A DNA stretch of 64,000 nt from Lampris incognitus (taxonomy: Eukaryota; Chordata; Actinopteri; Lampriformes; Lampridae): assembly GCF_029633865.1 (NCBI RefSeq), contig NC_079223.1, positions 9,061,736 through 9,125,735 on the forward strand. The letters run 5' to 3'. Below the pieces are notes generated by a model. It ran no database searches. It was not told where the DNA came from and worked only from the letters and a program-made list of their open reading frames with translations. Below, in pieces: positions 2,781-60,322 of this stretch. Position numbers and translations under genes: made by a program. Numbering within the stretch: position 1 is the stretch's first letter; every line of letters begins with the position of its first letter.

Positions 2781-3997
2781 CACTCACCGGCCACTTTATT
2801 AGGCACACCTGTCCAACTGCTCATTAACGCAAATTTCTAATCAGCCAATCACATGGCAGCAACTCAATGCATTTAGTCATGTAGACATGGTCAAGACGAT
2901 CTGCTGCAGTTCAAACCGAGCATCAGAATGGGGAAGAAAGGTGATTTAAGTGACTTTGAACGTGGCATGGTTGTTGGTGCCAGACGGGCTGGTCTGAGTA
3001 TTTCAGAAACTGCTGATCTACTGGGATTTTCACACACAACCATCTCTAGGGTTTACAGAGAATGGTCCGAAAAAGAGAAAATATCCAGTGAGCGGCAGTT
3101 CTGTGGGCGAAAATGCCTTGTTGATGCCGGAGGTCAGAGGAGAATGGCCAGACTGGTTCGAGCTGATAGAAAGGCAACAGTAACTCAAATAACCACTCAT
3201 TACAACCGGGGTATGCAGAAGAGCATCTCTGAACGCACAACACGTCGAACCTTGAGGCAGATGGGCTACAGCAGCAGAAGACCACACCGGGTGCCACTCC
3301 TGTCAGCTAAGAACAGAAAACTGAGGCCACAATTCGCACAGGCTCACCAAGATTGGACAATAGAAGATTGGAAAAACGTTGCCTGGTCTGATGAGTCTCG
3401 ATTTCTGCTGCAACATTCGGATGGTAGGGTCAGAATTTGGCGTCAACAACATGAAAGCATGGATCCATCCTGCCTTGTATCAACGGTTCAGGCTGGTGGT
3501 GGTGGTGTAATGGTGTGGGGGATATTTTCTTGGCACACTTTGGGCCCCTTAGTACCAATTGAGCATCGTGTCAACGCCACAGCCTACCTGAGTATTGTTG
3601 CTGACCATGTCCATCCCATTATGACCACAGTGTTCCCATCTTCTGATGGCTACTTCCAGCAGGATAACGCGCCATGTCATAAAGTTCGAATCATCTCAGA
3701 CTGGTTTCTTGAACATGACAATGAGTTCACTGTACTCAAATGGCCTCCACAGTCACCAGACCTCAATCCAATAGAGCACCTTTGGGATGTGGTGGACCGG
3801 GAGATTCGCATCATGGATGTGCAGCCGACAAATCTGCAGCAACTGCGTGATGCTATCATGTCAATATGGACCAAACTCTCTGAGGAATGTTTCCAGTACC
3901 TTGTTGAATCTATATCACGAAGGATTAAGGCAGTTCTGAAGGCAAAAGGGGGTCCAACCCGGTACTAGCAAGGTGTACCTAATAAAGTGGCCAGTGA

Positions 3998-4886: not shown

Positions 4887-6184
4887 TCACACCAGCCACC
4901 ACACATGTCCAAACCATCTCAGTCTTGCCTCTCTTGCTTTGTCTCCAAACCGTCCAACCTGAGCAGTCCCTCTAATATAATCGTTCCTAATCCTGTCCTT
5001 CTTCGTTACTCCCAGTGAAAATCTTATCATCTTCAACTCTGCCACCTCCAACTCCACCTCCTGTCTTTTCGTCAGTGCCACTGTCTCCAAACCATACAAC
5101 ATAGCTGGTCTCACAACCATCTTGTAAACCTTCCCTTTAACTCTTGCTGGTACCCTTCTATCGCAAATCACTCCTGACACTCTTCTCCACCCACTCCACC
5201 CTGCCTGCACTCTCGTCTTCACCTCTCTCCTGCACGTCCCGTTACTTTGGACAGTTGACCCCAAGTACTTAAACTCATATGCCTTGATCACCTCCACTCC
5301 TTGCATCCTCACCATTCCACTGTCCTCTCTCTCATTCACGCATATGTATTCCGTCTTGCTCCTACTGACTTTCATTCGTCTTCTCTCCAGCGCATACCTC
5401 CACCTCTCCAGGCTCCCCTCCACCTGCACCCTACTCTTGCTACAGATCACAATGTCATCCGCGAACATCATCGTCCATGGAGACTTCTGCCTGATCTCGT
5501 CCGTCAACCTGTCCATCACCATTGCAAACAAGAAAGGGCTCAGAGCCGATCCTTGATGTAATCCCACCTCCAACTTGAACCCATCTGTCATTCCAACCGC
5601 ACACCTCACCACTGTCACACTTCCCTCATACGTATGCTGCACCACTCCTACATACTTCTCTGCAACTCCCGACTTCCTCATACAATACCACACCTCCTCT
5701 CTTGGCACCCTGCCGTATGCTTTCTCTAAATCTATAAAGACACAATGCAACTCTTTCTGGCCTTCTCTATACTTCTCCATCAACATTCTCAAAGCAAACA
5801 TCGCATCTGTGGTGCTCTTCGTGGCATGAAACCATACTGCTGCTCGCTAATTGTCACCTCTCCTCTTAACCTAGCTTCTATTACTCTTTCCCATATCTTC
5901 ATGCTGTTGCTGATCAACTTTATGCCTCTGTAGTTGCTACAGTTCTGCAAATCGCCCTTGTTCTTGAAAATCGGTACCAGTATGCTTCTTCTCCACTCCT
6001 CAGGCATCCTCTCACTTTCCAAGATTGTGTTAAACAATCTAGTTAAAAACTCCACTGTCATCTCTCCTAAACACCTCCATGCCTCCACAGGTATGTCATC
6101 AGGACCAACTGCCTTTCCACTCTTCATCCTCTTCATAGCTGCCCTCACTTCCTCCTTGCTAATCCACAGCACTTCTTGATTCAC
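4887..6184 (-). pseudogene. RTE reverse transcriptase, frame-broken
   Basis: Two minus-strand frames (6184-5789 and 5801-4887) together cover the RT domain. Seen are KSGKAVGPDDIP and PIFKNKGD in the first, and FIDLEKAYGRVP (motif A), GLHQGSALSPF (motif B) and MMFADDIVICS (FADD box) in the second, then the YLGSTVQSNG thumb and the RNDYIRGTAQ tail. The FADD active site is intact, but the frame shift near 5795 and a C-terminal deletion make the copy dead. Confidence 0.88.
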
Positions 6185-8280: not shown

Positions 8281-8427
8281 CAGGGGCGACTCTAGGATCA
8301 GAGCTTTAGGGGTGCAGAGCACCCAGAGTGCTGGCCGGCCAGGCAAGATAAATTTGGGGGGGTGGGTGGATCAAACCGTTTTCGAAGCATGGGGGGGTGT
8401 GCTGTATTTTTGTTGTTAAAATATTAC

Positions 8428-8562
8428 TGTAAACTACTAATAAGACCCGTTAGCCCCTAGCTAACGGGTCTGACCCTTTAGCCGAGCGGTTAGCGACGTC
8501 GCCTTGTGGTGCAGTACACCTCGTATCGAATCCCGCACCGGGCATGAAAATAACCGGTTACA
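8428..8562 (+). repeat. TRIM copy A, 5' LTR with tRNA-like module
   Basis: 135 bp, TG...CA. A perfect 9-bp stem with loop CCCTA lies at 8446-8468 (CCCGTTAGC / GCTAACGGG). An A-box-like TAGCCGAGCGGTTAG is at 8479-8493 and a B-box-like GTATCGAATCC at 8523-8533, spaced as in a tRNA gene. Confidence 0.85.
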
Positions 8563-8563
8563 T

Positions 8564-8582
8564 TGGTGGCGGCGGTGGGATC
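8564..8582 (+). promoter_or_regulatory. TRIM primer-binding site, tRNA-Leu type
   Basis: TGGTGGCGGCGGTGGGATC. Copy B has TGGTGGCAGCGGTGGGATC, which complements the 3' end of vertebrate tRNA-Leu(AAG), CCCACCGCTGCCACCA, as I recall that tRNA. Confidence 0.8.
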
Positions 8583-8664
8583 CGGAAGTGTGCAGATCCT
8601 CAGAAGTCTCTTCAGAGCGCGGAATGACAAAGCGCGAGGGCGCGCTTCCGGGGAGGGTGACGAC

Positions 8665-8759
8665 TGTAAACTACTAATAAGACCCCTTTAGCCGAGCGGT
8701 TAGTGGTGCGGTATATCTCGTATCGAATCCCGCACCGGGCAAGAAAATAACCGGTGACA
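8665..8759 (+). repeat. TRIM copy A, 3' LTR
   Basis: Begins with the same TGTAAACTACTAATAAGAC as the 5' LTR and ends GGTGACA; also carries the A and B boxes. Confidence 0.85.
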
Positions 8760-8989
8760 TTACGTTTAAACCATATACTGGATACGGTTTTGACATTTCT
8801 TCAGTTTATCGAACGTGGACGTACAGTAAAAAAAAAAAAATCTCTTCAATTTTAGGGGTGCTGGGGTTCAACGTAGGGGTGCTGCAGCGCCCCCCCCCCA
8901 AAAAAAAATGGGCTAGAAACGCCTATGCCGAGCAGATAACGTTGATCCAACCACGGGCGGGCGGTTTGAATCAAACGGGATTCTGTAAA

Positions 8990-9333: not shown

Positions 9334-11597
9334 GTAGGTGGGGAGTGCGGGGATATGGGAGTTCTTTCTTCGCTCGGTTAGCCCCGTCGCCAGCTAGCGC
9401 GGTAAGCTAACAGCCGCTAACTGCGGGCAGTTGTAATTCGGCCGGGGCCGTTTTAAAGTCGCCTAAAAACGTCGTCCGCCGTGTACTTTTCCGCAGCTTT
9501 GGGGCGTCGCGGTGCGTATAACGTGCGGGGACGGCGGTTAGCTGGGTCGGATGATGGGGGTCGTGTTAAGCGATCCAGCTGCGATAGAGTACCGAACTTA
9601 GCAACCGGATCAAAGATTTGTGTTAAAAAAAACCAAAATAACCCCGCGCGCGCTCCTATGGGGCATCTCGGGTGTGTGGTACCGACCCAGACGGCCGCGT
9701 TCCTAACGAGCTACGTGGTATTGTCGGGCCCCTTTCTTGAGTCAACCGAACCTCTCGTCCCTTCCGTCCTTCTTCCATATGTAACCTCAACACTTGGGAC
9801 TATCGAGCCTCGTTAAGCCGGCAACCCCCCTGGTGGGAAAGGGGGGGACGGTCGGAGACGAAAGGAGGCGAAGATAACGCTTCGGTCCTGGGCAAGTTTG
9901 TTCCTCCGAGGGTGGAGAAACCCAGCAGTTCGCAGCGGTTTCCTGTCGGCGAGGCAAGCCGCTGGAAGTGCTCCGTCGGCGGGCGCGGGAGACGCGGACT
10001 TTGCCGACTCGGCCGAGCGTTCGCGTGGAAGCCTTTTACACGGCGGACGAGCGTTATCCGAGACCAGCACCAGGAGCTGTGCCCCCCCCCCTCCCTCCCC
10101 TCTTTAGAAAGTCGGTCTGAGGAGGGGGGGGGGCATCTCGCATCAGCAGGCGGGACAGTTCTCCTCCCTGCCTTGACACGTAATGAATGAGAAAGTTGTT
10201 CGATTGTTTGCGCCCCGGTTACAGTTTATAATAAAAAGAAACAATGTGTCCATTCGCACGTACGTGTTTGTTGTTCGAAAACCTGAAGCGATTTATTGTC
10301 ACGTGCCCCCCCCCCCCTATTTAGAGTTCTGCATGGCTGTACGAGTGGAGCGAAAGGGGTTTCTGGTGCCGAGTCCCGAGTTGTTTCCTATTCGCCCTCC
10401 GCCAGCTTTCTTCCCCCGCAGGCGCAGACTCTCTGCCGTGTGTGAGATGCGTTTTAAAAAAGGGGCCCTTTTGCACGACGAGAAACTCAGCTCTGGCTGC
10501 CAGTCTTCATTGGCTTTGCTTTTCTTTCTTTTACGCTGCAGAGCTTTTAATCACTCTCATATGCAGTAAAACCGACAATTGCTTCTTTTCTTATCCGTTT
10601 GTGACTGGCCAGCAGATAACGCACACACTTCAAGATCTAATCAAGTTGATAATGTTCACCCGCATGCCTAACCGTACATACTGAACTATTTTTAGTACTT
10701 ATAATAAAGAAATGTGGGCCCAACAGTCTTATTAGTTTGTCCCTCATTATGTTGAAATAGTTGGATTCTAGTCTCAGTAATAATGTTTAGTTAAATCTAA
10801 GCTTTTAGGCTATACGTGGTTTCCAAACTGGGAAAGAAGGCCAAATTCACTGTAAATGTTTTATATAATCAATCAATCAATCATAGTATGCTGTATGCAA
10901 CCATTAACGTAAATATTGAGTAAATACTCTGCAGTGCTTGTTTGTATTCAGCCGTGTTCTCCTTGTTTAACGTAGTTAAAAGTCCTGAGACACCGACAGC
11001 TGGCTTTCACTCTGAGAGGCAGCCACTTTTTGCCACGTTATGCTGTCAAGACTTCCTCTGTTGTATGGTCTAACACAAGGTGCAAGTATATGCAGAGGGA
11101 TAACAGCGACACCTTGAGGCCATTACGTTTGCCACAACGGCTGTTCTGGCCCTCCATAGTGTTATCTTGTATCTGTTGAAATAGGTACATAGCATTCACT
11201 GTTTTATTTTGCACTAGCAGAGAAACACAAGTAATATAATGGCTCTTGGAATAGCTTACTTCTGGAGTGTGTTTTGCAGTCTTTCCACCTATGAATTGCC
11301 TGGATTTTCTTTGCTCTTGGGAAACAACCTGAAGCAAACACAGAATTAGGAAGACCTTTAGGGTTAGGTAACAGCATTTTCACCAGGACTTCTTTGCCAC
11401 GAGTATTGGTGTACTTTGCTTTTAGAAGTTTTTCTCTATTTGGCATTAGAATGGGGGGAATAAACAGATTTTATCTGTAAATTATTAATCTGTATCATGT
11501 CTCGGATAATCTGCATTTGTCTATTACGAAAGTAAGATGTTGTTGCACTGTCCATATTGTATTGCCAAATCTGGTAATGATATTTTTCTGTTGACAG
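9334..11597 (+). other. rrbp1: rrbp1 intron 1
   Basis: The first 0.8 kb is CpG-rich with several short G and C tracts, an extension of the promoter island. The rest is AT-rich. No repeat family or extra exon recognised. Confidence 0.6.
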
Positions 11598-11615
11598 GTT
11601 AACCAAAACTCAACA

Positions 11616-14600
11616 ATGGATATCTACGACCCCCAGACCCTTGGGATTATGGTGTTTGGTGGATTCATGGTGATCTCTGCCCTTGGCATTGTATTGGTCT
11701 CCACCTTCTCCATGAAGGAAACCTCTTATGAGGAGGCGCTCGCCAAGCAACGTCAAGAGCTGGGCAGGATGCAGCCAGCTCGCTCGGAGAAGAAGAAGAA
11801 GGATAAAGCATCTGAGAAGAAGAATCGAGGGAAGAAAAAAGAGGAAAAGCCCAATGGAAAGATCCCCGAGCCAGAGAGTATACTTGAGGCCCCTGTGGCT
11901 GACCTACCACCTGAGCTTCCTTCTGCCCCAGTCGTAGCTGCCCCTGCTGCCCCTGCTGCCCCTGAACCTGTCCCTGCCTCTGAGCCTAAATCAATTCCAA
12001 CTCAAGCACCTGTTGCTGCCCAAATCTCCGCACCTGCTGAATCCTCACCTGCTCCATCCCCGAAAGAAAAGAAGAAGAAAAAGGTAGCCAAGGTAGAGCC
12101 AGCCTCTACGCAGCCAACCTCTAAGTCTGCTCCCACCCCTGCCAATTCTTCTCCTGCCCCTGTCCCAGCCAAGTCTTCCCCTGTACCAGCTAAAGCTGCT
12201 CCTGCCCCTGCACCAGCTAAAGCTGCTCCTGCCCCCGCCACAACTAAAGCTGCCCCTGCCCCTGCCACAACTAAGTCTGCTCCTGCCCCTGCCAAGTCTT
12301 CCCCCACCCCAAATAAGTCTGCTCCTGCCCCCACCGCAACTAAGTCTGCCCCTGCCAAATCTGCTCCTGCCACAGCCAAATCTGCCCCTGTTCCTGCCAA
12401 GTCTGCCTCTGACCCTGCCAAATCTGCTCCTGCCCTTGCCAAGTCAGCCTCTACTGGTGCTGTTAAATCAGCCCCTGCTCCATCGCAGACCAAATCTGCT
12501 CCATCCCAGACCAAGTCCTCTCATCCTCCAGCCAAGACGTCCGCAGCTCCTTCCAAGTCTGCTGCGTCTGCTAAGTCTGCCCCAGTGCTGGAGACTGTTA
12601 CCAAAGAGGTCCCAGTGATGGCAGTGCCCCCGGTGGGCTCTGCACCTGTGGCCCCAGCAAAAGCACAGGAACCCAAAAAGAAGGCCTCCAAGAAAAAACC
12701 TGAACCTGGTAAGTGGATTGTTTAAGCAACACCTGGTGTTGGCATGGCACAAGCATAACGTGGACAGGGATTCTAATGGTTATTACAAATATAATTGTGA
12801 CTAAAAGGGTGTTAGTAAAAATTTTGAGGTGTTGAACCTGCAACTGTTGGAACTGCTCAGTGTGGCCACCAGGATTGAGTTTTTAATGAAGTTCCTAGTT
12901 GGGACAAGTTTATGGAAGGAAACACAATAAACTTTTTTCTAACACTATATAAGAGACATTTAGGACAAAGAACCTCAAATAATGCTCAAGCTCAGTATGA
13001 TTGCAGGAAACTAAAAGGGAGTGTAATAGTTAAAGTACCCCAACAAGATATTCACGTGACTCTAAAGTTAAATGATTATAGATAAAATTAGCTCTCCCCT
13101 TTTGAATTGAAGGAAATGGTTGTCTAGGCAGGAAGTGGATCAGCCATAACACCAGTGGTGGTATAGTTCTCAGATTAAAAAGCGTCTCAAGTTGGGAGTG
13201 ATGGCACATAGAATTGAAAAGTGCTTATGCAGAATCTAAGAGGCACTGTTGGCACTGATGAACCTCCAGCAGTGTCCATGGGAAATAGCACCCGTGGGCA
13301 GAGGTGGTTAACGTCTGGCACTCCAACTCTGGAGGGCATAGAGCACGCTGGCCTGTCCAAACACCACTGCCGTGTTTAGTTAGCTAACAAAGCCTCTCAG
13401 TGTCCCAACAATGGGCGGGTTTCTCCTGCCTGAGGGCCGTCTCTGCCTGGTGCCTCAGTGCCCCATCACTTTGCCAGCCGAAGAAGCCCAGCACCCCATC
13501 CTTAGAGGAGAACTTGCAATCTGGACATTTCCAGAGGCAATGTGGCAATTTATTCTGAAGGCAGGCCATCTAATGAGACCCTCAGAAACATTTTTTTCTG
13601 TTCAGTATCTTCATGAAATAAAGTCAAACCTGCCTAGACTTTGAATGAGAGTTTGTTTATTCTTTTTGCTAGTGTCAGTTTGTATTGCTGTGTTGTGCCA
13701 TGTTTCATTGAAATGCTGTCTTTCTGTCTAGCTGCCGTGGTGGATTCTGCCGATGCCCCATTGTACCTTCCTTACAAGGCGCTGGTGTCCACCGTCAGTA
13801 ACATGGTGTTCAGCGAGGGAGAGGCCCAGAGGCTCATAGAGATCCTCTCTGAAAATGCTGGCATCATTCAGGACACCTGGCACATGGTATGGAAGATTGC
13901 TATGAGCTCCAAGGAGAAAGTGTCTGTTGCACTTTGAAAACCAGCTAAAATGTCCAGGCATGTGGACTGAAACGAAACATGAGGGGGTGATTGTCTCCAT
14001 CGGGCCTGTGTCTTCTCTGCATGTGTGACTGTTTCTATTTGTATGAATGATTTTCAGGCCACACAGAAAGGAGACCCAGTGGCCATGATGAAGAAGCAGC
14101 TGGATGAGAAGGAGAGACAACTGGTGGCTGAACAAGAGGATGCTACTGCAGCCAAGAATCGTCTAAGAGAAATTACCAAGGTTAGAAACCACTGTCTCTG
14201 TTTAACTAAGTCAATTAAAGGTGAACCTTATTTGAACCTGGACTGAAATTCACTGACTTCTTTACACAGTTGTAAACCTAGTCACTAAACGTATCAAACA
14301 GAATACCCATGACTGTGAATCACAGTCAAACCTGGGCTATTGTGGCATCAGGCTGCCGACTCTCCAACAGCTGCACAGGACTTGAATGAAGCAGAAGTCG
14401 AAGAGCAGTTAAAAGCATGGTTTAAATCTGAAACTGCCAGAGGGCCTTTTTCCATGTAGACAGTCACAGTTTTGTAATCTAAAGCGAACAAAATGATGAT
14501 TGGTGTTTCTTGCACAGAGCTTACCAGCTGCAGGCCCTGATTGCACATGTCAAACTGACTAAAGGTCACTTCTCTGCTCCCAACAATGGAGACTAGGGAA

Positions 14601-32152: not shown

Positions 32153-32703
32153 CTAGAAGTTGAATTCAAACCAGGTAGCCCTGTAAGAGGGGTCTTCGAT
32201 GAAGCCCAGTTTTGTAAACAGCCTGTGCGACACCGCGTTCTCCTCCTCTACGAAGCAGTACACCGGATAACCCAGAGCCTGGAGTTTCTTGGCCATGCTG
32301 CAAATCAGAACCTTGGCGTAGCCTTTCCCTCTGTGCTCTGGCAGAGTGTGCAGCATGCCCATGGCACAGTAGTCGTAGACCAGGATCCAGGACACGGGCC
32401 GGCCCTGGCCGTCGGTGATGCAGCACGAAGGAAAGTTGCTTATGAGGTTTTCGATAGTTCTGTACCCGTTTTCGTCTCCTCCGAACTTCCAAGTTTTGTT
32501 CACCAATTCGACGTGGGAAATGTTCAGCGGCGATATCCTCGACTCAGTCTCGCTGTTGAATTTGGAAAAAGATGAGAGGGAGAGAAAGAGGGAGGGAGAG
32601 AGAGAAGGGCTCTGTGAAAGTGATGGTCACTGCAAGTTGGATCCCATTTAGCCGACATGATTTCATGAGCAGAGGCAGGCCATACACAGGACAGGTACAC
32701 ACA

Positions 32704-39335: not shown

Positions 39336-39401
39336 CATGTCTGTGAATGTTCTCATTCATCCAGGTCATGACCTGGATGAATGAGAACATTCACAGACAT
39401 G
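39336..39401. repeat. Exact 66-bp palindrome at Penelope 5' end
   Basis: CATGTCTGTGAATGTTCTCA ... and its complement meet at CCAGGTCA|TGACCTGG (centre 39368/39369) with no mismatch and no spacer. The right arm belongs to the Penelope coding sequence. Confidence 0.95.
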
Positions 39402-41736
39402 TTGCGGAACAATTTGGGTCTGACACCCTTAAAATGGTGAGGGAATATGAAAGGATGGCTCGGAAGATTGCAGACTACAGAAACCACTTGGGATTCAATC
39501 TGAGATGCAGACAACACAGGCTCATACCCACTAGCCTGCGCCTGTGTACCACAATGAAAGGACATAGAGCAGACAGAATCCTAGAGATGCCACAGAATCA
39601 ACTCCTGAATGAAAGAGTGAGACAGGTCCATTTCACTATTGAAGGGCTGAAGGAGAAATCTGACCAACTACTCCAGCAAATAACATCCCACTTTTCTGGT
39701 GCAGTCTTGGAGAGGATCACTAATTTCACCAAGAAAGCCCAACTATCTCAACACAACGAAATCAAGGAAAGGCAGACAAGGAAGTTTCAAAACGTACAGC
39801 GACGAACCAGCAACACTAGCCAAGCAGATATACTTACCTGGAGACAAAAGACAGAACATCCCACACAAAACGGAACGCAGAACAGATGGATCAAGGATCT
39901 GTCTAACAAGGTACTTTCCCAATCAGAGAAGGAGGTCTTAGCCAAAGGACTGAACTTCGCCATGACACCCAAACAACTACCTATAGTTGACCTCATCATA
40001 TCCACAGAATCAGCCATAAGGAAAAACAATCTAACAGAAATTGAGGCGGAACATCTTAGGTTAAAGGTATCAGCAGCTCTGTCCAATGCGAAACTCCCTC
40101 TTTCCAACCTAACCATGGAGGAAAGGAAAGCCGTGACAGCCCTGAGCAAGGATGAAAACATCACTATCCTTCCAGCAGATAAGGGGAGATGCACGGTTAT
40201 CCTCAACACAACAGACTACCATGCCAAGACCACGTCATTACTCAGCGACACCGACACCTATGATGAACCTCTGAGACGTGATCCAACTAGTGGTTACAAG
40301 AGGAGAATAATAGAGTACCTACAGAAACTACAGAAAGGAGGAACCATTGATCGGATACAATACCACCGTCTCTACCCACAAGACAACATTCCATGCCTAT
40401 ATGGACTCCCTAAGATCCATAAAGATGGAACCCCCCTCAGGCCCATCGTCAGCAGCATAAACTCGGTCACGTACAACATTGCCAAACATATAGCCAACAT
40501 CTTGACCCCTTTAGTGGGCGAAACACCTCACCATATCCAAAACTCCATTGACTTCCTGGACAAAGTCCAAGGCATAAAACTGGAACCGGATGAAACCATG
40601 GTATCCTACGACGTGACGTCGTTATTGACCTGCATCCCAACCATGGAGGCTTTGGAAACTGTGAGGCAACGTTTGCTACGGGACGACACCCTCCACAATA
40701 GGACCAACCTCAGACCAGACCAGATTTGCCAACTGCTGGACCTTTGCTTGAACACTACATATTTCTAATTCAGGGGCCAGTTTTACAGACAGAAACACGG
40801 CTGTGCAATGGGCTCACCGGTATCGCCCATTGTAGCCAACGTATGTATGGAAGAGGTAGAACACAGGGCCCTGAACTCCTTCAGAGGAACACCTCCGAGC
40901 CACTGGTTCAGATATGTGGACGACACAATGGGTCAAAATCCAAACACAAGAAGTGCAAGCGTTTACCAAACACATCAACTCAGTGGACAAGAACATTAAG
41001 TCCACAAGGGAAGACGTAAAGAACAACAGTTTGCCCTTCTTGGACTGTGACGTCCACATTGGGGAAGACAGGAGCCTCCACATTGGGGTTTACAGGAAAC
41101 CTACACACACAGACCAATATCTACTTTTCGACTCACACCACCCTCTGGAACACAAACTGAGCGTCATCAGAACTTTGCAACACAGAGCTGACAATGTGCC
41201 CAGCAGCTCTCAGGCCCAACGGGAAGAACACAATCACCTGAGGGGAGCTTTAAAAACCTGCGGCTACCCCAGTTGGACCTTTGTGAAAACTGCAACACGT
41301 TCCAGAAAGACCAACCAGGGGAGCGACAGGGAGAAAATTAACAGAAGGAAGAGCACAGTCATCCCGTATGTTTCCGGGGTCTCCGAGAAACTCAGGAGAA
41401 TTTTTAACAAAGACCACATCCCGGTATACTTCAAACCCAGCAACACACTCCGACAAAGACTGGTTCATCCCAAAGACCGTGTACCACACACCCCAAAAAA
41501 GCAATCTGGTGTATGCTGTACAATGCAATGAGGATTGCACTGACCTATACATAGGAGAAACCAAACAACCACTACACAAACGGATGGCCCAACACAGAAG
41601 GCCAAACTCCTCAGGACAAGACTCAGCAGTCTATCTGCACCTAAAGGAGAAGACACACTCCTTCGAGGACAGCAACGTACACATTTTGGACAGAGAAGAT
41701 AGATGGTTTAAAAGAGGGGTGAAGGAAGCCATCTAT
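39336..41736 (+). mobile_element. Penelope-like retroelement with GIY-YIG domain
   Basis: The first frame (39347-40768, 473 residues) carries the Penelope N-terminal region, ILPADKGRCTVIL, GLPKIHKDGTPLRPIVSS and SYDVTSL (RT motif A). MGSPVSPIVANV (motif B) and FRYVDDT (motif C) follow in downstream frames. A GIY-YIG-type nuclease is visible at 41.5-41.7 kb (VYAVQCNEDCTDLYIGETKQ). The element looks broken in about two places and its 3' end is replaced by a tRNA-like LTR at 41737. A rearranged fragment of the same family lies at 60.4-61.0 kb. Confidence 0.9.
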
Positions 41737-41856
41737 GCGACAGCCGGGACGCGAACCCGTGTCTCCCACTCCGCAAGTGACAACGTTAACCAGTCGACTA
41801 AAGGGTCCGACCCGTTAGTCAAGGACCAACGTGTCTACTTATCCATGCACGCTACA
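41737..41856 (-). repeat. TRIM-type LTR with tRNA-like module, subfamily 2 (copy D)
   Basis: The minus strand starts TGTAGCGTGCATGGATAAGT, then a stem-loop (GTTGGTC / GACTAAC), an A-box-like TAGTCGACTGG and a B-box-like GGTTCGCGTCC. It matches the solo LTR at 60.17 kb and, more distantly, TRIM copies A and B. It is joined directly to Penelope codons, so the other end is incomplete. Confidence 0.75.
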
Positions 41857-41882
41857 ATGCGTTACATAAGTTAGGTTATGGT

Positions 41883-49440: not shown

Positions 49441-49560
49441 TTCCCTGCTGAACAACTACTTATTCACATTATTGCACGTCTAATGTTTTAAATATGTATT
49501 GCAGTATTTCCTGTTTTGTTTGCTTTGAGGGACTTTTATTCTGAAATTGCGAATTGATTC

Positions 49561-49695
49561 TGTAGCCGGTTATTTTCTTGCCCGGTGCGGGATTCGATAC
49601 GGGGTGTACTGCACCACAAGGCGACATCACTAACCGCTCGGCTAAAGAGTCAGACCCGTTAGCTAGGGGCTAACGTGTCTTATTAGTAGTTTACA
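49561..49695 (-). repeat. TRIM copy B, 3' LTR with tRNA-like module
   Basis: A-box-like TAGCCGAGCGGTTAG at 49644-49630 and B-box-like GTATCGAATCC at 49600-49590 on the minus strand, with the upstream stem-loop CGTTAGC / GCTAACG. Confidence 0.88.
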
Positions 49696-49778
49696 GTCGT
49701 CTCCCTCCCCGGAAGCGCGCCCTCGCGCTTTATTATTCCCGCGCTCCGAAGAGACTTCTGAGGATCTGCACACTTCCG

Positions 49779-49797
49779 GATCCCACCGCTGCCACCA
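49779..49797 (-). promoter_or_regulatory. TRIM copy B primer-binding site, tRNA-Leu(AAG)
   Basis: TGGTGGCAGCGGTGGGATC on the minus strand, one base after the LTR. Complementary over about 18 bases to the 3' end plus CCA of tRNA-Leu(AAG). Confidence 0.82.
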
Positions 49798-49798
49798 A

Positions 49799-49933
49799 TG
49801 TAACCGGTTATTTTCTTGCCCGGTGCGGGATTCGATACGGGGTGTACTGCACCACAAGGCGGCATCACTAACCGCTCGGCTAAAGGGTCAGACCCCTTAG
49901 CTAGGGGCTAACGTGTCTTATTAGTAGTTTACA
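49799..49933 (-). repeat. TRIM copy B, 5' LTR with tRNA-like module
   Basis: 135 bp, same layout as the 3' LTR. Confidence 0.88.
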
Positions 49934-49937
49934 ATTC

Positions 49938-50675: not shown

Positions 50676-50773
50676 TGTAGACTACTAATAAGACACGTTA
50701 GCCCCTAGCTAACGGGTCTGACCCTTTAGCCGAGCGGTTAGTGATGTTGCCTTGTGGTGCAGTACACCCCGTA
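50676..50773 (+). repeat. TRIM LTR, partial (copy C)
   Basis: TGTAGACTACTAATAAGACA through the stem-loop and A box to GTACACCCCGTA, then an abrupt join to BEL/Pao integrase codons. Confidence 0.85.
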
Positions 50774-52823
50774 GGAAACTCAGGAGAAGCACAGAACAAC
50801 AAAGGATGGCAGACCTCCCGGAAGAGCGGATGGAGACCACGCCTCCATTCCCTTACTGTGGAATCGACTGTTTTGGACCATTCTACGTCAAGGAAGGGAG
50901 GAAAGAGTTAACGCGTTATGGATTGTTACTTACCTGTATGTGTTCCAGAGCAGTACACATCGAGACGCTTGACAACTTGACCTCAGATGCCTTCATCAAT
51001 GCTCTGCGTTCATTCATCGCCATTCGTGGTTCAGTCCGCCAGATAAGATGTGATCAAGGGACAAACTTCGTCGGTGCTAGACGTGAGTTTGTTGAGGTAC
51101 TGAAAGAGATGGATCAAGAAGAACTCAAGGAATTGGGATGCGAGTTCCTCATGAACAGCCCAGCTTCAAGTCATATGGGTGGTGTCTGGGAACGACAAAT
51201 ACGCACCATCAGAAATGTCCTGGCGTCCACCCTAGAACAGTCAGCCAAGCAGCTTGACTGCTCCTCTCTGCGAACGTTCCTGTACGAAGTCATGGCAGTT
51301 GTAAATAGCAGACCTCTAACCACTGATTATCTGAACGATTCATCTAGTCCAGAACCCTTGACACCCAACCACATACTCACCATGAAATCCACGATCCTTG
51401 CCCCACCTCCTGGAAAGTTCGTCAAGGAAGATCTTTACCTCCGCAAGCGATGGCGCCGAGTGCAACTCTTAGCCAACAGTTTCTGGGCACGGTGGAAAAA
51501 GGAGTATCTCCTAAACCTCCAGCAAAGGCAGAAGTGGACTAAAGACCGCAAAAGCGCAAGGATCAACGACATTGTTCTGCTGAAAGAGGATGCTACACCA
51601 CGAAACCAGTGGAAGTTGGCAAAGGTTATCGAAGTGAACCCAGGAAAGGATGGAAGAGTCAGGAGACTCAAGTTGCTCATCAGTGATTCAACTCTGGATT
51701 CTAAAGGAAAGCGCATCTCCAAGCCAGTTCACATGGAGAGGCCTATCCAGAAGACAGTTACACTGTTGGAAGCTGAAGACTGAAGGCTTTAGTATATCTA
51801 AAGACCAATACAAATACAGTAGAAGCTAGTAGTTAACAGCTTAATTAAAGATAAGAATTGTGAATTAAGTTGACAGTATAATAATCATTTCTAAAGCTGT
51901 CTTTATCTCCAATCCCTCCACCAGTAGTTCAGGTGGTTCATAGTATATTTTTTAAGTTAATGTTTTGTCCTATACTAGACTTTATCACATTAGTATAGCT
52001 GTAAAATAATAACGAGGCAAGAGACGAGCACCGTACGTTTTCAACTCCTTTCTTTTTTATCTCACTTCTTCATCACCCTCAGCACCGTACTACTCAGCAA
52101 CAATCATTAGACTACTGCGCCCTCTGGTGGCGTGGTGGTATTGCAATGCATGAACAATGAATGAACCGACTACACAACATGTTTCTATGCAACGTGACGT
52201 CTTTCAAAGTCTGTCGTTCTAAGAAATCACTAATGATTTGGTGGGAGTGTAACTGCAGACAGTGTCAGTTAAGTTTTTAGTTTTGTTTTCTGCATTATAA
52301 TTTTGGTTCCTACTTCTCACCTGTATATGGTATATTGTAGTACGGAGGGCGGAACTAATCTCCGCGGCTCTATTGTTACCGGCAATTTAAGAATGTAGTA
52401 CCTCGATGTCAAGCGCCAAAAATAATAGCACTAACAGCGACAACAAGAAAATAGCAGCACACAAGACAAAGCTAATTAAGAGAAAGACAAGTTAAGATAA
52501 CAAGAAGATTTAATTGTATACTTACCTGTGAGACCTGAGGAAAGAAGATAATCTAGACGGAGACCAGACGAAGTGAAGAATTTAGCCCCTCTCAGTACTA
52601 AGCAGCTGACGAGGTAACGTTGTGTTGCTAATTGTCTGTTATGCTAGCTAATTTGCTAATGTGTTAACTATCTGTGCAGTTATTGAGAATTGACGTACAT
52701 GTATGCATTTTATTTTTATTTTTATTTGCTCTCAACCCAGTCTCACGGGTTGGCCTGTTCCCGAAGAATAAACCCCGTTACTGTCCAAGACTTGCTTTGT
52801 TGCGATTACTGAGTGGAGCTACA
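50774..52823 (+). mobile_element. BEL/Pao element, integrase and 3' LTR (fossil)
   Basis: The integrase-bearing end of a BEL/Pao Pol (50774-51783): YCGIDCFGPFYVKEGRKE, CDQGTNFVGARREF, SHMGGVWERQIRTIRNVL and PGKFVKEDLYLRKRW mark the Pao integrase core and C-terminal domain. About 460 bp later a purine-rich GGTGGGAG precedes a 576-bp LTR (52248-52823). The 5' half is absent, so it is a partial copy and cannot be complete. Confidence 0.88.
52248..52823 (+). repeat. BEL/Pao 3' LTR
   Basis: Starts TGTAACTGCAGACAG, ends GTGGAGCTACA, with AATAAA shortly before the end. The boundaries are judged from the TG...CA ends and the purine tract only. Confidence 0.6.
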
Positions 52824-52824
52824 T

Positions 52825-52838
52825 TAGTAGTTTACACT
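52825..52838 (-). repeat. 14-bp TRIM LTR start, inverted
   Basis: ATTAGTAGTTTACA is the exact complement of the first 14 bases of the TRIM LTR (TGTAAACTACTAAT). It sits between the BEL LTR and the L2 element. Confidence 0.6.
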
Positions 52839-52924
52839 ACCATACTAGCCACTGTTTATCAACCACCGAAGCCCAATAACAATTTCTTAAATGAATTTTC
52901 TGTCTTTCTAACCTTCTTATGTTC
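52839..52924 (+). mobile_element. L2 LINE, left piece
   Basis: Reads ILATVYQPPKPNNNFLNEFS, the endonuclease region of L2. The frame resumes at 60127 on the far side of the retrovirus (SPNVILLGDFNI). Confidence 0.85.
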
Positions 52925-53411
52925 TGTTGAGAAATCACCTTCGTGGTCCTCGTCCCCGGGTCCGTTGATGTGAAGAAAACAGCCACTACGTTTTAGGAGA
53001 TTAAAATAATTTTATTGAGTACAGATCTGGAGACACACTGCCAATCCGTCGTGTGTGTCTGACTTCTTTGTGTGTCCTGGTGGGTTATATAGACCCCCCT
53101 GCTTCTCCTTTACGACACCTCTGGTCTTGATTATCCTATCAATAGGACCTTTTGGTGGTTGAGCTTTAAGAAGTGCTCATCCTGTTTCAACCTACTGATC
53201 TTAGCAGGGGGTCCTCCTCGTACCAGACACGGTGTCTCTCCCAAGGCCCCAGGGGAGGGCAACCCCCTCCCCTACCCACATTCTTGTGGGAGACCTGTAA
53301 TATATTGGTCTACATGAATGTGTCTTCTTCACCCTCTGTTCTGGTTACATACATTGGTTACATACAGAGTAATACAAAATACACTCGGATTATATTTAAT
53401 ATCACTCAACA
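52925..53411 (-). repeat. ERV 3' LTR
   Basis: TGTTGAG...CTCAACA. On the minus strand it holds a TATATAA box (about 53090) and AATAAA (53016-53011). Preceded by the purine tract AAAAGGGGGAA. Confidence 0.92.
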
Positions 53412-53493
53412 ATTCCCCCTTTTGATCTCCTCTAAGGAGATCACTAAAAGGCTTCTAACTCCTGATCTAAGGGGTTCAGGACAAACAGGGGCA

Positions 53494-53900
53494 TCATAGG
53501 GGGCGGTAGTTCCCGTCTTTGCGGTCGATAGCTGTGATGATGAGCCGGTTTACCAGGGAACGCAGGCAGGGTATGAAGCAGCAACCGCAAGTTACTAGTA
53601 TAGCCAGAAATATGGCGAGGGAAGGAAGGAGGGACATTACAACACCCTTCCACTTGCCAAATAGGGAAGCGAGCCATCTTTCAAACGGGTTGGTAATCCC
53701 AGAGTGCTCATGCATGGTCTGCGATAATGCCCTCAGACCCTCGAGGGCTCGTGTAACAGATCCATCTGGGGCGGTGTTATTGGGAATGAAAGTACAACAC
53801 TGGTCCCCAAACATAGAGCAAACACCCCCTTTTTACCTCGTCCCTCTTTGCCCGGCTCTGGGTTAAATCAAAAGCCCAGACGCACATGGTCAGCCACATC
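53494..53900 (-). mobile_element. ERV Env, TM subunit region (fossil)
   Basis: A Cys-Cys motif typical of gamma-type TM proteins (FGDQCCTFIPNN), then a helical segment and a hydrophobic membrane anchor (VVMSLLPSLAIFLAILVTC) with a short tail. Partial and broken. Confidence 0.8.
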
Positions 53901-54055
53901 ACCACGGCCAGAGCCCCAACCGCAAATCTAGTTTCTACATGATGGTGAATTCTTTTGACCGTCATGGCGCAGGCTGCTGGGTCGCCGATCTGCTGGACCA
54001 TTCCTCCCAAATCGGCTTCTTCTAGCCGGGTTTGTGATCGTCCGGCCGGGCTCCT

Positions 54056-55123
54056 CTATGACCTAGGGGAGAGGTTACCAGCACTCTCACCCTGTTCCAA
54101 ACTAACAGTGTGGTTTGGTGCTTTGCTGGAATCTGGTCTCGCTTCCTGGGGGGACGTTGCCTCCTGTAGGCCCTCTGGTATAGCGTCTAGGGTCCGTCCG
54201 GGCTCCTCCGCGACAGCACACTTGCTCCAGTGGTACCAGACTTCTCCTTTCCCTTTCAGCCGGACTGCGTGAGACGTCCTCTCTACCACCTCGTAGGGTC
54301 CGGTCCACCGGGGCTCCGCCCACTTCCGCTTAATGGCTCGCAACAGGATCCACTGCGCCTGGGGGAGGATGGATTCCGGTGCTGGCGTGCGTCTTTCGCC
54401 AACCTGTCGGGAGATATCTGAAACCAAAGCCTGTAATTCTTTAAAACATGTGCTTTTAGTTCCCCCCATTGACTCTAGTCCCTCCGTTGAGGCCGCCCCT
54501 GGCCCCGGAAACTGTCGCCCCGTCATTAATTCATATGGGGTGAACCCGGTCCCCTGATTGATGACCTAATCGTCATTAGTGCCAAGGGAAGGGCCTCAAC
54601 CCAATTCATTTTAGTTTGAGCACAAATCTTAGCCAGTTTTTGTTTGAGGTTTTGATTCATTCTTTCTACCTTGCCCTGGGACTGTGGATGGTATACGGTC
54701 ACAAAGGCGTGTTTCAGTCCTAATAGGCTCTCGACCTTTCTGAGGTCGGCCCCCCTTGAAATGAGATCCTTTGTCGGAGCGGATTTTGGAGGGGAATCCA
54801 TGTCGAGGAATGTAATGGTTAATCAAGCATTTTATAACAGTGGCGCTATCTTCCTTTTTTGCCGGCCATCCCTCCGGCCACCCTGTCAATTGATCCACAC
54901 ACACCAACAAATACTGGTATCCTTTCACCCTCTTGGCTTCCCCCATATCCATATAATTCAATACCACCTCTTGTCCTGGACAAGAGATCAGGGGAAATCC
55001 CCCCATCTCAGGTTTTATGGTGGGGCGTGAATTATACTGAGTGCAAATGGGGCAACTCTTGACGTGGTATTTAGTCATGTCGGTCAAAAAAGGATGCCAC
55101 CAATGGCAAAGATTTCGATTCAT
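54056..55123 (-). mobile_element. ERV integrase region (fossil)
   Basis: MLV/epsilon-like integrase features: a zinc-finger end (CPICTQYNSRP), a core segment with VCVDQLTGWPEGWPAKKEDS and a C-terminal part with RWTGPYEVVERTSHAVRLKG. Partial and broken. Confidence 0.82.
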
Positions 55124-55464
55124 CTGAACAGCCCCTACATGCCCTATTCCGAGTCTGAGTATATGGTTACTCTTTTTTTTCCTTGTTTTTTTCTTCTTCT
55201 TTTTTCACTTAATCCTACCAGCACTCTTATTAGTGCGAGACCGAGGGTAAACAGCCGCATTATTGTCAGTGCACGACCTCATGTGCGTTTTTAAATGATC
55301 TTATGCGTGCGACGAATCTCCCAGGGTTTTGCTGAGGAATCTCAGCGACACCGACCAAATGGACCACCCGCCTCTCTCTTTCTTAGGTTATTGGGAGATC
55401 GGTAACTATGTTCTTGTCCCGAGAAGATCAGTCCGCCGGTTGTCCGTTTGGCGAGCGACGTGAG

Positions 55465-55482
55465 ATCCCACTTCTGACACCA
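55465..55482 (-). promoter_or_regulatory. Internal LTR's primer-binding site, tRNA-Leu
   Basis: TGGTGTCAGAAGTGGGAT on the minus strand, three bases after the internal LTR. Complementary to tRNA-Leu(CAA). Confidence 0.82.
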
Positions 55483-55485
55483 AAT

Positions 55486-55984
55486 TGTGGATTTTCTTAT
55501 CCTCTTAATGGGCTCTTGCCCCAGCAACCTCTGGGACGAACAATCATTGGACAAATATTGGAGCAAACAGAAAATCTCTAATGCATCTGCAGATGGAGAA
55601 TCATATAATCACAGAAGTCAGTCTGTGAGGATAAGCTCCGCCCCTATACTGGAGATAGGGGTTTTCTAGCACAGTCCGTCGTGTCATACCCTATGTTTCC
55701 TGCATTAACCAAGGTGTTGTCTTACAAAGGAATGCAGGAAAACATCAGTCATGTTCTGTGCCTGGTGAGTGTCTGTAGATTTATTCTTTTACTGCCCCAG
55801 GCCGGAGTGGCCCTCATGTTTTAGTGACCCCTTGTTGTTATCTTTACTGCCCAAGGCTGGGGAGGCCCTCATGTGTTAGTGACCATTTGTCGTCTGCAGT
55901 GTATGAGAAGTTTCATACACACAGAGAAGTGGAAAACTACAGAGTACCTACGGAGTGCACATGGAGTACTATTTGTACTCCACA
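55486..55984 (-). repeat. Internal LTR of a second ERV family
   Basis: About 499 bp, TGTGGAGTAC...AATCCACA. Preceded on the minus strand by an Env TM-like tail and AAAAGGGGGAA, and followed by a primer-binding site, so it reads as both a 3' and a 5' LTR. Confidence 0.78.
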
Positions 55985-55994
55985 ATTCCCCCTT

Positions 55995-56202
55995 TTGTTC
56001 ATCATTGAACACCCAAAGGTAACATAGAAGGGGAAGATGAAACAAGGTCCCCTTCCTGTTGGGCAAGGAGGTGATAATACACGAGCTGAGTAGCAATGAG
56101 GCCGTGTATCAAACGCCGAACTATGGGCACGATGCAGCAGGTGAGGAGTAGCAGGACACCCAGGAAAAGTGATGCTGCTATGACTCGGCGAGTTAAAGAC
56201 AT
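55995..56202 (-). mobile_element. Second Env TM-like tail (fossil)
   Basis: A hydrophobic anchor (VIAASLFLGVLLLLTCCIVP) and short basic tail unlike the 53.5-kb Env, just before the internal LTR's purine tract. Confidence 0.55.
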
Positions 56203-56490
56203 CAGGACCCATTATTTGCATCAGCATCTCCGACATGAACTGCACCGGATCTCTACCGGCCTCACTACCTTCAAAAATGTTCAGTACATGGAGATTGGCC
56301 CTCCGAGATCGGTTCTCGAGGTCGTCAATTCGGTCCTGCAGAGACCGGTTTTGGGTTCGGACCATTTTGATGGTGGACTCAGCTGCAGTTAAACGTTCAA
56401 AGTTGTCACTGGTTACAGACTCCACAGAGGCAAGGCGATTTCGGACTCTCAAAGCCAAACCCAAGTCTATGGTCTCCAGAGCTAGCTAGT
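56190..56490 (-). mobile_element. L1-type ORF1 fragment inside the ERV
   Basis: The minus strand reads a coiled segment, then DDLENRSRRANLHVLNIFEG and DPVQFMSEMLMQIMGPDVF, the start of the Transposase_22 domain of L1/Tx1 ORF1 proteins. Confidence 0.6.
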
Positions 56491-56499
56491 TGGTGGTAG

Positions 56500-58960
56500 T
56501 CTCATCTAGACAACCAGAGGGGTCTTCATGTGTGGGGGGATTGGCTGGGCCAGGAGCAGACCACCCTCACCTCCTCTCTCACCCGGAAGCTAACCGGGAC
56601 ACCATGGAGACCACCCTTACACAGACACAGCTCCTACAGCCACGTTATGTGGCGGGTTGCTCTTAGTTCTGTCCAGCCGGGAGGTTGTCTTCCCGTGGAG
56701 CATACCCCGGGCCCCTGGACCCGGTACCACGGGAGTGGGGGTGTTACTCAGCCCGTCTGGAGGAGGGGGAGGAGCAGGTGGTGACAATATCTGCAGGGAA
56801 AAACTTTCAGAGAGAAACTGCACAACACTGAAAACACTGTCATTCTAGGATTCTGAAGATTTGTAGTCAACTTGATTCAGTGTTCTTCAGATACTTCCGC
56901 TATGATCTAAGTTTGTATCCGTTTGTTTCTTATGAAGTAAAAAAATCAAAGAAAACTGTACAGAAGAAGGCTCACAACCATTCTAAATTTCAATTCCTCA
57001 TTCCCACATTTCAATTCCTCATTCCCACTACCCCTCGTTTTACACAAGAAAAGAACACATTGTGTCAACCCATTTAACCATGAAGGACAAAAATGAAAGT
57101 ATGACATGATCAGTTTGTGTGTTAGTTGTTAATAAACCAAAAACAATTTCATGCAGTCGAATGAATCGGACTTTCATTTCATCCAAGCTGTTTACAAATG
57201 TTCTGAAGTCTGTAATGTTGTACTTCTCTGAAATAAATTGTCTTTAAAACTAAAACAGATGAGGGATGATAAGGATAGTTGTCTCAGATCCTGAACGTTC
57301 AAATATAAACCTAAATGAATAAAACCATAAGGTATCTTGTAAATCAATAAAACAATGAGCTGTTTGAAGACAAGAAACAAATGCCCCCCACCTTAACCAA
57401 ATGAAACAACAAGAAGCCCCTTTTCAAGGCCCCAAAAAGAGGGAGGTGGGGTTTCAAAGAAAAGAAATGCTCAATTAACAATACAAAGAAATTGATGTAA
57501 TCAGTTAAAACCAAATAAATCAAACCAAAAAGGAGTCTTATGAGGAGGCTCAAACTCATGGTAAAAATAACATAAACATGGCCATAGCATAGACCTTTAA
57601 AACGCAGGACTCAGTAGGTTTCATTCATATCCAAATAAAATGTAATCGTCCTCCTCACAAGAAATTGTCAAAGAAATGAATACCCTCTTTTAAAAAAAAG
57701 AACAACATCATAAAATACACACCTTAGTGTTGAAAAACAAAACAAGTTCAATTTAACACAGAGGAAAGTCAACATAAAAACAAATAAACCAATGGGTGTC
57801 TTCTAATGGAAAGGAAAACAACAACAGCTTAAAACAACATAACTGTGGTTTACATTGTCCCTGTTACTCTCAAGGCAACCCCCCCATCCATCCCCCCAAG
57901 GTGTGAAGCGGGTAGGCAGTTGGTTCCCCCCAGTTATCCTTTTAAAAAAAATCCCAGTAACAGAAAGAAAAACAGAATAGGTAAAATTAAAAATATTGCA
58001 GCTGTGGCGTTGGACGTAACAGAGTTCTGCTTAACAATTCAGGAAATGAAACAGGGACAGGAATTTCTTCAGTTTAGGGGAATCCTAAAAGAAGTGAGGA
58101 CAGGATCAAGTTAACGTGAAAAATACACCACAAAAACTTTCAATGCAACAAAAACAAAAAACAAAAACCAAAATGGATATATCACATTTTATATGAGGTA
58201 CCTCAGAAAGAAAAGAAATAGATTTCTTGAAAGGATTTAAATAATTAATGCTTCAGGTTGGTGACTTTCTAAAGCCAGTTGTTTGTCACACAAGAACAAA
58301 AGCCGGGTTGGGTCTGATAAGGATGCTGAACGAGGTGGTCTCTGAAGATTCCTCTCACACCCCAATTGTCAGGAAAACAAAAGGTTTGGAAAAGCCAAAA
58401 CAAAACCTCCCCCAGCTTTTATATCCCCTTTTAAGCCACTCTCAAGGACTTGCAACTTCTAAACAACACAAAATGGCCAGACGGACAAACACCACGGAAC
58501 AAACTATGAACACACACACAGACAAGTCATGTCAAACACAAAAGTCAGTCAGGGTCAGTCAAGGCGCGGTTTGGTACCAATGGTTTTGTGTCATAGTCCT
58601 CTGTAGCTTTTTCTTTCCCTGCTTTCACACTCTTTCTTTTCCGAGTATTCAACATTATTCCGACCAGTACATCTATTTGTTCCCGTAAGGACTTCCACCG
58701 GGGCTTCTCTTCACCCTTTTCACCCGTCACAAATACCTTCCCAACGGAACGGCATCCTCCGCCTTTCTCTCTCTCCCAATATAATAGCTTCTTCTAACCT
58801 CCTTTGTTCTTCCTCCCCTCGTCTTGCCTTTGCCCTGGCACCCTCATTTTTTTGGTCCGTCATCATTTGTATCAGTATGTCGCTCTGCTTCTGCAGGGAC
58901 TTCCACTGCGGTCCGCTCCCGCTTTTTTCTCCTTCTTCTTTTTCCATTCTACCTTTTACG
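56500..58960 (-). other. ERV interior, mostly unassigned
   Basis: Two short Lys/Glu/Arg-rich frames (58947-58720 and 58730-58545) share the pattern WKSLxxQxDxLxxxM and may be gag-derived. A Pro-rich frame lies at about 56820-56620. The 1.7 kb between is A-rich on the plus strand with nothing recognised. Confidence 0.45.
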
Positions 58961-60122: not shown

Positions 60123-60165
60123 GTTCTTTATCCCCTAATGTAATATTGCTGGGTGATTTTAATAT

Positions 60166-60322
60166 TGTAACGTGCATGGATAAGTAGGCACGCTGGCCGC
60201 TGGCTCGCGGGCCTGACCCTTTAGTCTAGCGGTTAGCGATGTCTCCTGCGGTGCGGGCGATACGGGTTCGCGTCCCGGCCGCGGCAGTTCCTGTGGTCAC
60301 GTTGCCCCCCGAATTCGCTACC
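60166..60322 (+). repeat. Solo LTR with tRNA-like module, subfamily 2 (copy E)
   Basis: Starts TGTAACGTGCATGGATAAGT and contains TAGTCTAGCGG (A box) and GGTTCGCGTCC (B box) 46 bases after the TTAG, the spacing of tRNA-Asp and tRNA-Glu genes. Flanked by ATAT; removing it with one ATAT restores the L2 frame (DFN-IYMDN). Confidence 0.8.

Follow-up and report, generated by a model that had tools for sequence, protein, structure and literature searches.

The window, by which we mean the whole 64,000-nucleotide stretch of Lampris incognitus DNA that was analysed, carries on its minus strand a 373-bp element, designated E1, at positions 49561-49933. A direct-repeat search recovered its two LTRs as 135-nt direct copies at 49561-49695 and 49799-49933, 97% identical and 238 apart. 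The LTRs have TG...CA ends and agree at 131 of 135 positions, leaving 4 differing positions. In sense, which is the minus strand, the element reads TGTAAACT...TTACA. The LTRs enclose a 103-bp interior (49696-49798) with no coding content, which opens T-TGGTGGCAGCGGTGGGAT in sense, and a target duplication of 4 bp (GAAT in sense, ATTC on the plus strand) flanks the whole. The features of E1, in order along the plus strand, are as follows.

49557-49560, no strand: target site duplication ATTC on the plus strand (GAAT in sense), downstream side, from the sequence
49561-49695, minus: 3' LTR, 135 bp, from the repeat search
49696-49798, minus: interior, 103 bp, without TTTT in sense
49700-49710, minus: polypurine tract GGGGAGGGAGA, separated from the 3' LTR by 4 nt, as read from the sequence
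49744-49756, minus: sense match of 13 nt to the tRNA-Leu-TAG variable arm, of uncertain significance, interior positions 43-55
49780-49797, minus: primer-binding site (PBS), interior positions 2-19, from complementarity to tRNA-Leu
49799-49933, minus: 5' LTR, 135 bp, from the repeat search
49828-49838, minus: box B-like GTATCGAATCC in the 5' LTR, LTR position 96
49872-49882, minus: box A TAGCCGAGCGG in the 5' LTR, LTR position 52
49934-49937, no strand: target site duplication ATTC on the plus strand, upstream side, from the sequence

The preliminary description of this locus as a miniature, non-coding LTR element with a purine tract and a perfect ATTC duplication was thus borne out. Folding of the LTR and of the interior gave nothing unusual (z of -1.17 and -0.45, respectively).

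The PBS is exactly complementary, at 18 of 18 positions, to the 3' end of tRNA-Leu including the CCA. The tRNA-Leu sequences used here, and in the LTR and interior comparisons below, were taken as those of the human genes. The AAG and TAG isoacceptors have the same 3' end, and hence both fit the E1 PBS; the site had been assigned to tRNA-Leu(AAG), of which the tRNA-Leu part stands and AAG as the sole choice does not. A tandemly duplicated, tRNA-derived SINE might imitate an LTR element; the A and B boxes that each repeat carries would suit it, as would a size within the SINE range. This explanation is contradicted by the anatomy of the element, namely the TG...CA ends, a PBS immediately following the 5' LTR, a purine tract ahead of the 3' LTR, duplications of 4 bp around both copies and the lack of an A-rich tail, and we give it next to no credence.

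A second copy (E2) and three partial or divergent relatives were located elsewhere in the window.

8428-8759, plus: second copy E2, 332 bp, with 5' LTR at 8428-8562, interior at 8563-8664 and 3' LTR at 8665-8759
8424-8427 and 8760-8763: E2 duplication TTAC
50676-50773, plus: truncated LTR (S3), first 98 bp
41743-41858, minus: divergent LTR-like relative (B41k), adjoining an ORF whose GIY-YIG match falls below threshold
60164-60279, plus: divergent LTR-like relative (C60k), whose box B reads GGTTCGCGTCC

The 5' LTR of E2 is 94.8% identical to that of E1, its 102-bp interior is 94.2% identical, its PBS matches tRNA-Leu at 17 of 18 positions and its 3' LTR has two internal deletions. Both copies that have two ends are bounded by 4-bp duplications, GAAT for E1 and TTAC for E2. 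The CpG observed/expected ratio is 1.09 and 1.25 in the two copies versus 0.53 in the window, which suits a recent insertion. E1, E2 and S3 constitute a mobile family. B41k and C60k are 81% alike across 116 bp, versus 77-82% across 50-70 bp when compared with LTRs of the E1/E2 family; with their better box B (GGTTCGCGTCC), they possibly represent a second family of the same general kind, the Helenus-like kind described below. A profile built from all seven LTR rows recovered its seven source sites in the window and otherwise only weak matches (E of at least 0.00087). Exact-pattern scans of viral contigs (three patterns) and genome contigs (one pattern) yielded 0 matches; these are viral and prokaryotic collections in which little fish sequence is expected, so the result carries little weight. 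The same holds for a distant search of a plasmid collection, where little fish sequence is likewise expected and no match was obtained.

E1 could instead descend by deletion from an autonomous Gypsy family sharing its LTR, and TRIMs may indeed arise by internal deletion (PMC10886601, Figure 1 legend). Against this, the same short interior occurs in two independent insertions and no longer element bearing this LTR was seen in the window, and we judge such an origin highly improbable.

Each LTR had been described as holding A- and B-box-like motifs, and these were confirmed: box A TAGCCGAGCGG begins at LTR position 52 and the box B-like GTATCGAATCC at position 96, with 44 nt between the starts. 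Box A is identical in all five family LTRs of the window. The box B-like motif departs twice from GGTTCGANTCC in both E1 and E2; its core is GTATC in both LTRs of each copy, versus GGTTC in B41k and C60k. When the LTR was compared with box patterns 12 and 11 positions long, the lowest mismatch sum was 3, which 2 of 1000 dinucleotide shuffles reached; another box-like pair, beginning at LTR position 31, has as few mismatches as the pair at 52. Box motifs alone are weak evidence, because a scan of the whole window for A plus B boxes with 2 mismatches allowed in all returned seven rows, C60k among them and none in E1 or E2.

Direct comparison of the LTR with tRNA-Leu was more discriminating. Two collinear exact blocks were found, one of 10 nt at box A and one of 9 nt at box B. 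The resulting two-block score of 19 (against tRNA-Leu-TAG) was obtained in all three full-length LTRs tested (both of E1 and the 5' LTR of E2), and was reached by none of 2000 dinucleotide-shuffled sequences and by none of 2763 segments from elsewhere in the window. These segments were drawn from both strands with the five copy or relative regions excluded. The truncated and divergent relatives scored lower (C60k 13, S3 10 and B41k 8). A single local alignment of the LTR with tRNA-Leu is a weaker test, and its score was equalled by 26 (AAG) and 19 (TAG) of 1000 shuffles. Judging from these matches, the LTR segment is most likely tRNA-derived, and the proposal that the LTRs contain such a segment, as a counterpart of the plant element Cassandra, held up.

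The segment is not a tRNA. ARAGORN at default settings called no tRNA anywhere in the window. A comparison of the LTR with Rfam, down to matches with an E of 10, returned no tRNA; at gathering scores the whole window gave nothing, and C60k gave just two chance-level matches, neither of them to tRNA. The earlier wording of a "tRNA-like gene" is therefore too strong. ARAGORN was also run on the element under relaxed settings; one setting produced two calls, both antisense, and the other a long list with introns among the matches listed, and these were ignored. A hairpin that overlaps box A and extends upstream of it is paired in 88.3% of cells, a figure that falls to 23-60% if the pairing is shifted by 1-3 columns, and it shows one G-C to A-U change; it was rejected as evidence, its covariation score and percentage paired being equalled by 163 of 500 shuffles.

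An ordinary, Pol II-transcribed TRIM, in which the tRNA-derived boxes of the LTR are a non-working relic, for instance of a SINE insertion, would accord with the two departures in box B of both copies and with the failure of Rfam and default ARAGORN to find a tRNA. It accords less well with the invariance of TAGCCGAGCGG across the family LTRs, five recent copies being too few to show selection, or with the retention of box A TAGTCTAGCGG together with a GGTTC box B in C60k and of box A TAGTCGACTGG, with one departure, in B41k. We consider this explanation unlikely, while according it real weight.

TRIMs with tRNA-derived sequence in their LTRs have been named Helenus (Kojima 2024, PMC10886601), and the element at this locus belongs to that published kind. 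E1 is very probably a copy of a Helenus-type TRIM, non-autonomous and with a degenerate tRNA-derived A/B-box promoter in its LTR, the likeness being drawn from the published description. Helenus occurs in fungi, animals and one plant, and is grouped with Ajax and Cassandra as TRIMp3 (PMC10886601). In animals it generates 4-bp duplications, and its vertebrate members are primed by tRNA-His, -Leu or -Lys (PMC10886601). The zebrafish family LTR-11_DR is a Helenus, counted at 5575 LTRs and 2618 interiors, with relatives in other Cypriniformes, one catfish and milkfish; Helenus families are also reported from sturgeon, paddlefish and coelacanth (PMC10886601). The earlier statement that no family like this one had been described was accordingly not upheld. 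The group is mentioned in a 2026 meeting report (PMC12859917); among the literature matches listed there was no other description of it, and a word search of the main text of a zebrafish transposable-element paper found neither "LTR11" nor "tRNA" (PMC9341512).

The likeness extends to several features. A Helenus TRIM has two LTRs, usually totals less than 1000 bp (311-1263 bp among described members) and lacks a coding interior, and E1 has this form at 373 bp. As in Helenus, A and B boxes lie inside both LTRs, and tRNA-derived sequence was detected within all three full-length LTRs tested, with no match to the Rfam tRNA model. A PBS follows the 5' LTR (18 of 18), a purine tract (GGGGAGGGAGA) precedes the 3' LTR, and the 4-bp duplications (two of two copies), the tRNA-Leu primer and the fish host all have parallels in animal or vertebrate Helenus. 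Most Helenus members have a box A of the form TRGCY ... YGG (PMC10886601), to which TAGCCGAGCGG of E1 and E2 conforms. The difference lies in box B, where GGTTC is conserved in Helenus without being the naming criterion (PMC10886601); this core is present in B41k and C60k, whereas E1 and E2 have GTATC. With E1, a second copy and divergent relatives in 64 kb, the window adds a clean genomic example of the group.

Two other TRIMs invite comparison. Cassandra, a plant TRIM with 5S rRNA sequence in its LTRs, resembles E1 in that its LTR includes part of a small-RNA gene and with it a Pol III promoter (PMC10886601), but the segment in E1 is tRNA-derived rather than 5S and the host is an animal. Cassandra transcription is furthermore reported to end within the 3' LTR (PMC10886601), whereas the E1 LTR has no TTTT in sense. 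Ajax, a nemertean TRIM, likewise has a small-RNA segment in its LTR and a tRNA-Leu primer (PMC10886601), but it combines a 5S segment with 5-bp duplications, in contrast to the tRNA segment and 4-bp duplications of E1.

Under the Helenus-type reading, a replication cycle can be proposed for E1. TFIIIC would bind boxes A and B and Pol III would start near LTR position 35-45; we regard this transcription step as reasonably probable. The R region would then, following from the start position, span most of the LTR, and the RNA would continue past the 3' LTR and terminate at a T-run in the flanking DNA. TTTT is absent in sense from both E1 and E2, and the first TTTT past the 3' LTR lies 28 nt downstream in E2 and 615 nt downstream in E1. 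The absence is neutral, because most shuffles of the element (69.6% of 1000 dinucleotide shuffles) lack TTTT too and the element has a higher G+C content; in the window, 97 of 656 plus-strand pieces of 373 bp are also without it. Minus-strand synthesis would be primed by tRNA-Leu at the PBS, strong-stop DNA would transfer between the R copies, and the purine tract would prime the plus strand. Finally, a Gypsy integrase acting in trans would insert the product and leave the 4-bp duplication. E1 thereby joins a class for which Pol III transcription is proposed but unproven: in the description of Helenus, Gypsy is inferred as the likely helper and the use of Pol III is not validated (PMC10886601). 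Fish copies are numerous, as the zebrafish LTR-11_DR count illustrates (PMC10886601), so that a laboratory animal is at hand for testing Pol III transcription.

A search of the window revealed no Gypsy helper sharing this PBS; outside the copies, the opening 20 nt of the interior were matched at 17 of 20 positions at best. The retrovirus-like region at 53-56 kb was considered as a helper and rejected; it has a PBS-like site matching at 17 of 20 positions, and at the settings used there was no direct repeat of at least 40 bp in 52000-57500. This region is itself a broken retrovirus-like element (53000-56000, minus strand) with the PBS-like site near 55483; one of its ORFs matches an integrase core (rve), and a second gives a below-cut-off match to the C terminus of an MLV-type integrase.

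The interior of E1 has a further, possibly new detail, a sense copy of part of the variable arm of the primer tRNA. The sequence AGTCTCTTCGGAG, located 23 nt downstream of the PBS, is identical over 13 nt to the variable arm of tRNA-Leu-TAG and over 11 nt to that of tRNA-Leu-AAG. A 13-nt match was reached by 0 of 500 mononucleotide shuffles, and a further 500 gave 12 at best. E2 has an exact run of 9, and in the alignment it agrees at this site in 12 of 13 letters. AGTCTCTTCGGAG is a small UUCG-type hairpin, so it may well have arisen by convergence. In HIV-1, LysRS is bound by a tRNA-like element close to the PBS (PMC11181671). By analogy, AGTCTCTTCGGAG might mimic the primer tRNA and attract leucyl-tRNA synthetase or tRNA-Leu to the RNA, such that a Pol III-made, helper-dependent RNA would load its own primer; we offer this as a long shot, and the segment would matter if it is conserved.

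Several other features were noted in the window, in which the Pfam domain scan covered 9 of 22 listed ORFs. ORFs at 39347-41874 (plus strand) resemble what we take to be a Penelope-like element; they have a GIY-YIG match just below the Pfam cut-off and end against B41k. The ORF adjoining S3 has a DUF5641 match above the Pfam cut-off and an integrase-core match below it. At 2877-3968 (plus strand), a 363-aa stop-to-stop ORF appears by eye to be like a Tc1-type transposase. Probable host exons lie at 11595-12725 (plus strand), which is RRBP1-like with a ribosome receptor domain and gave 34 hits, the named ones from fishes, mouse, a bird and, among the weakest, Plasmodium, and at 32153-32626 (minus strand), which is glycine N-acyltransferase-like.
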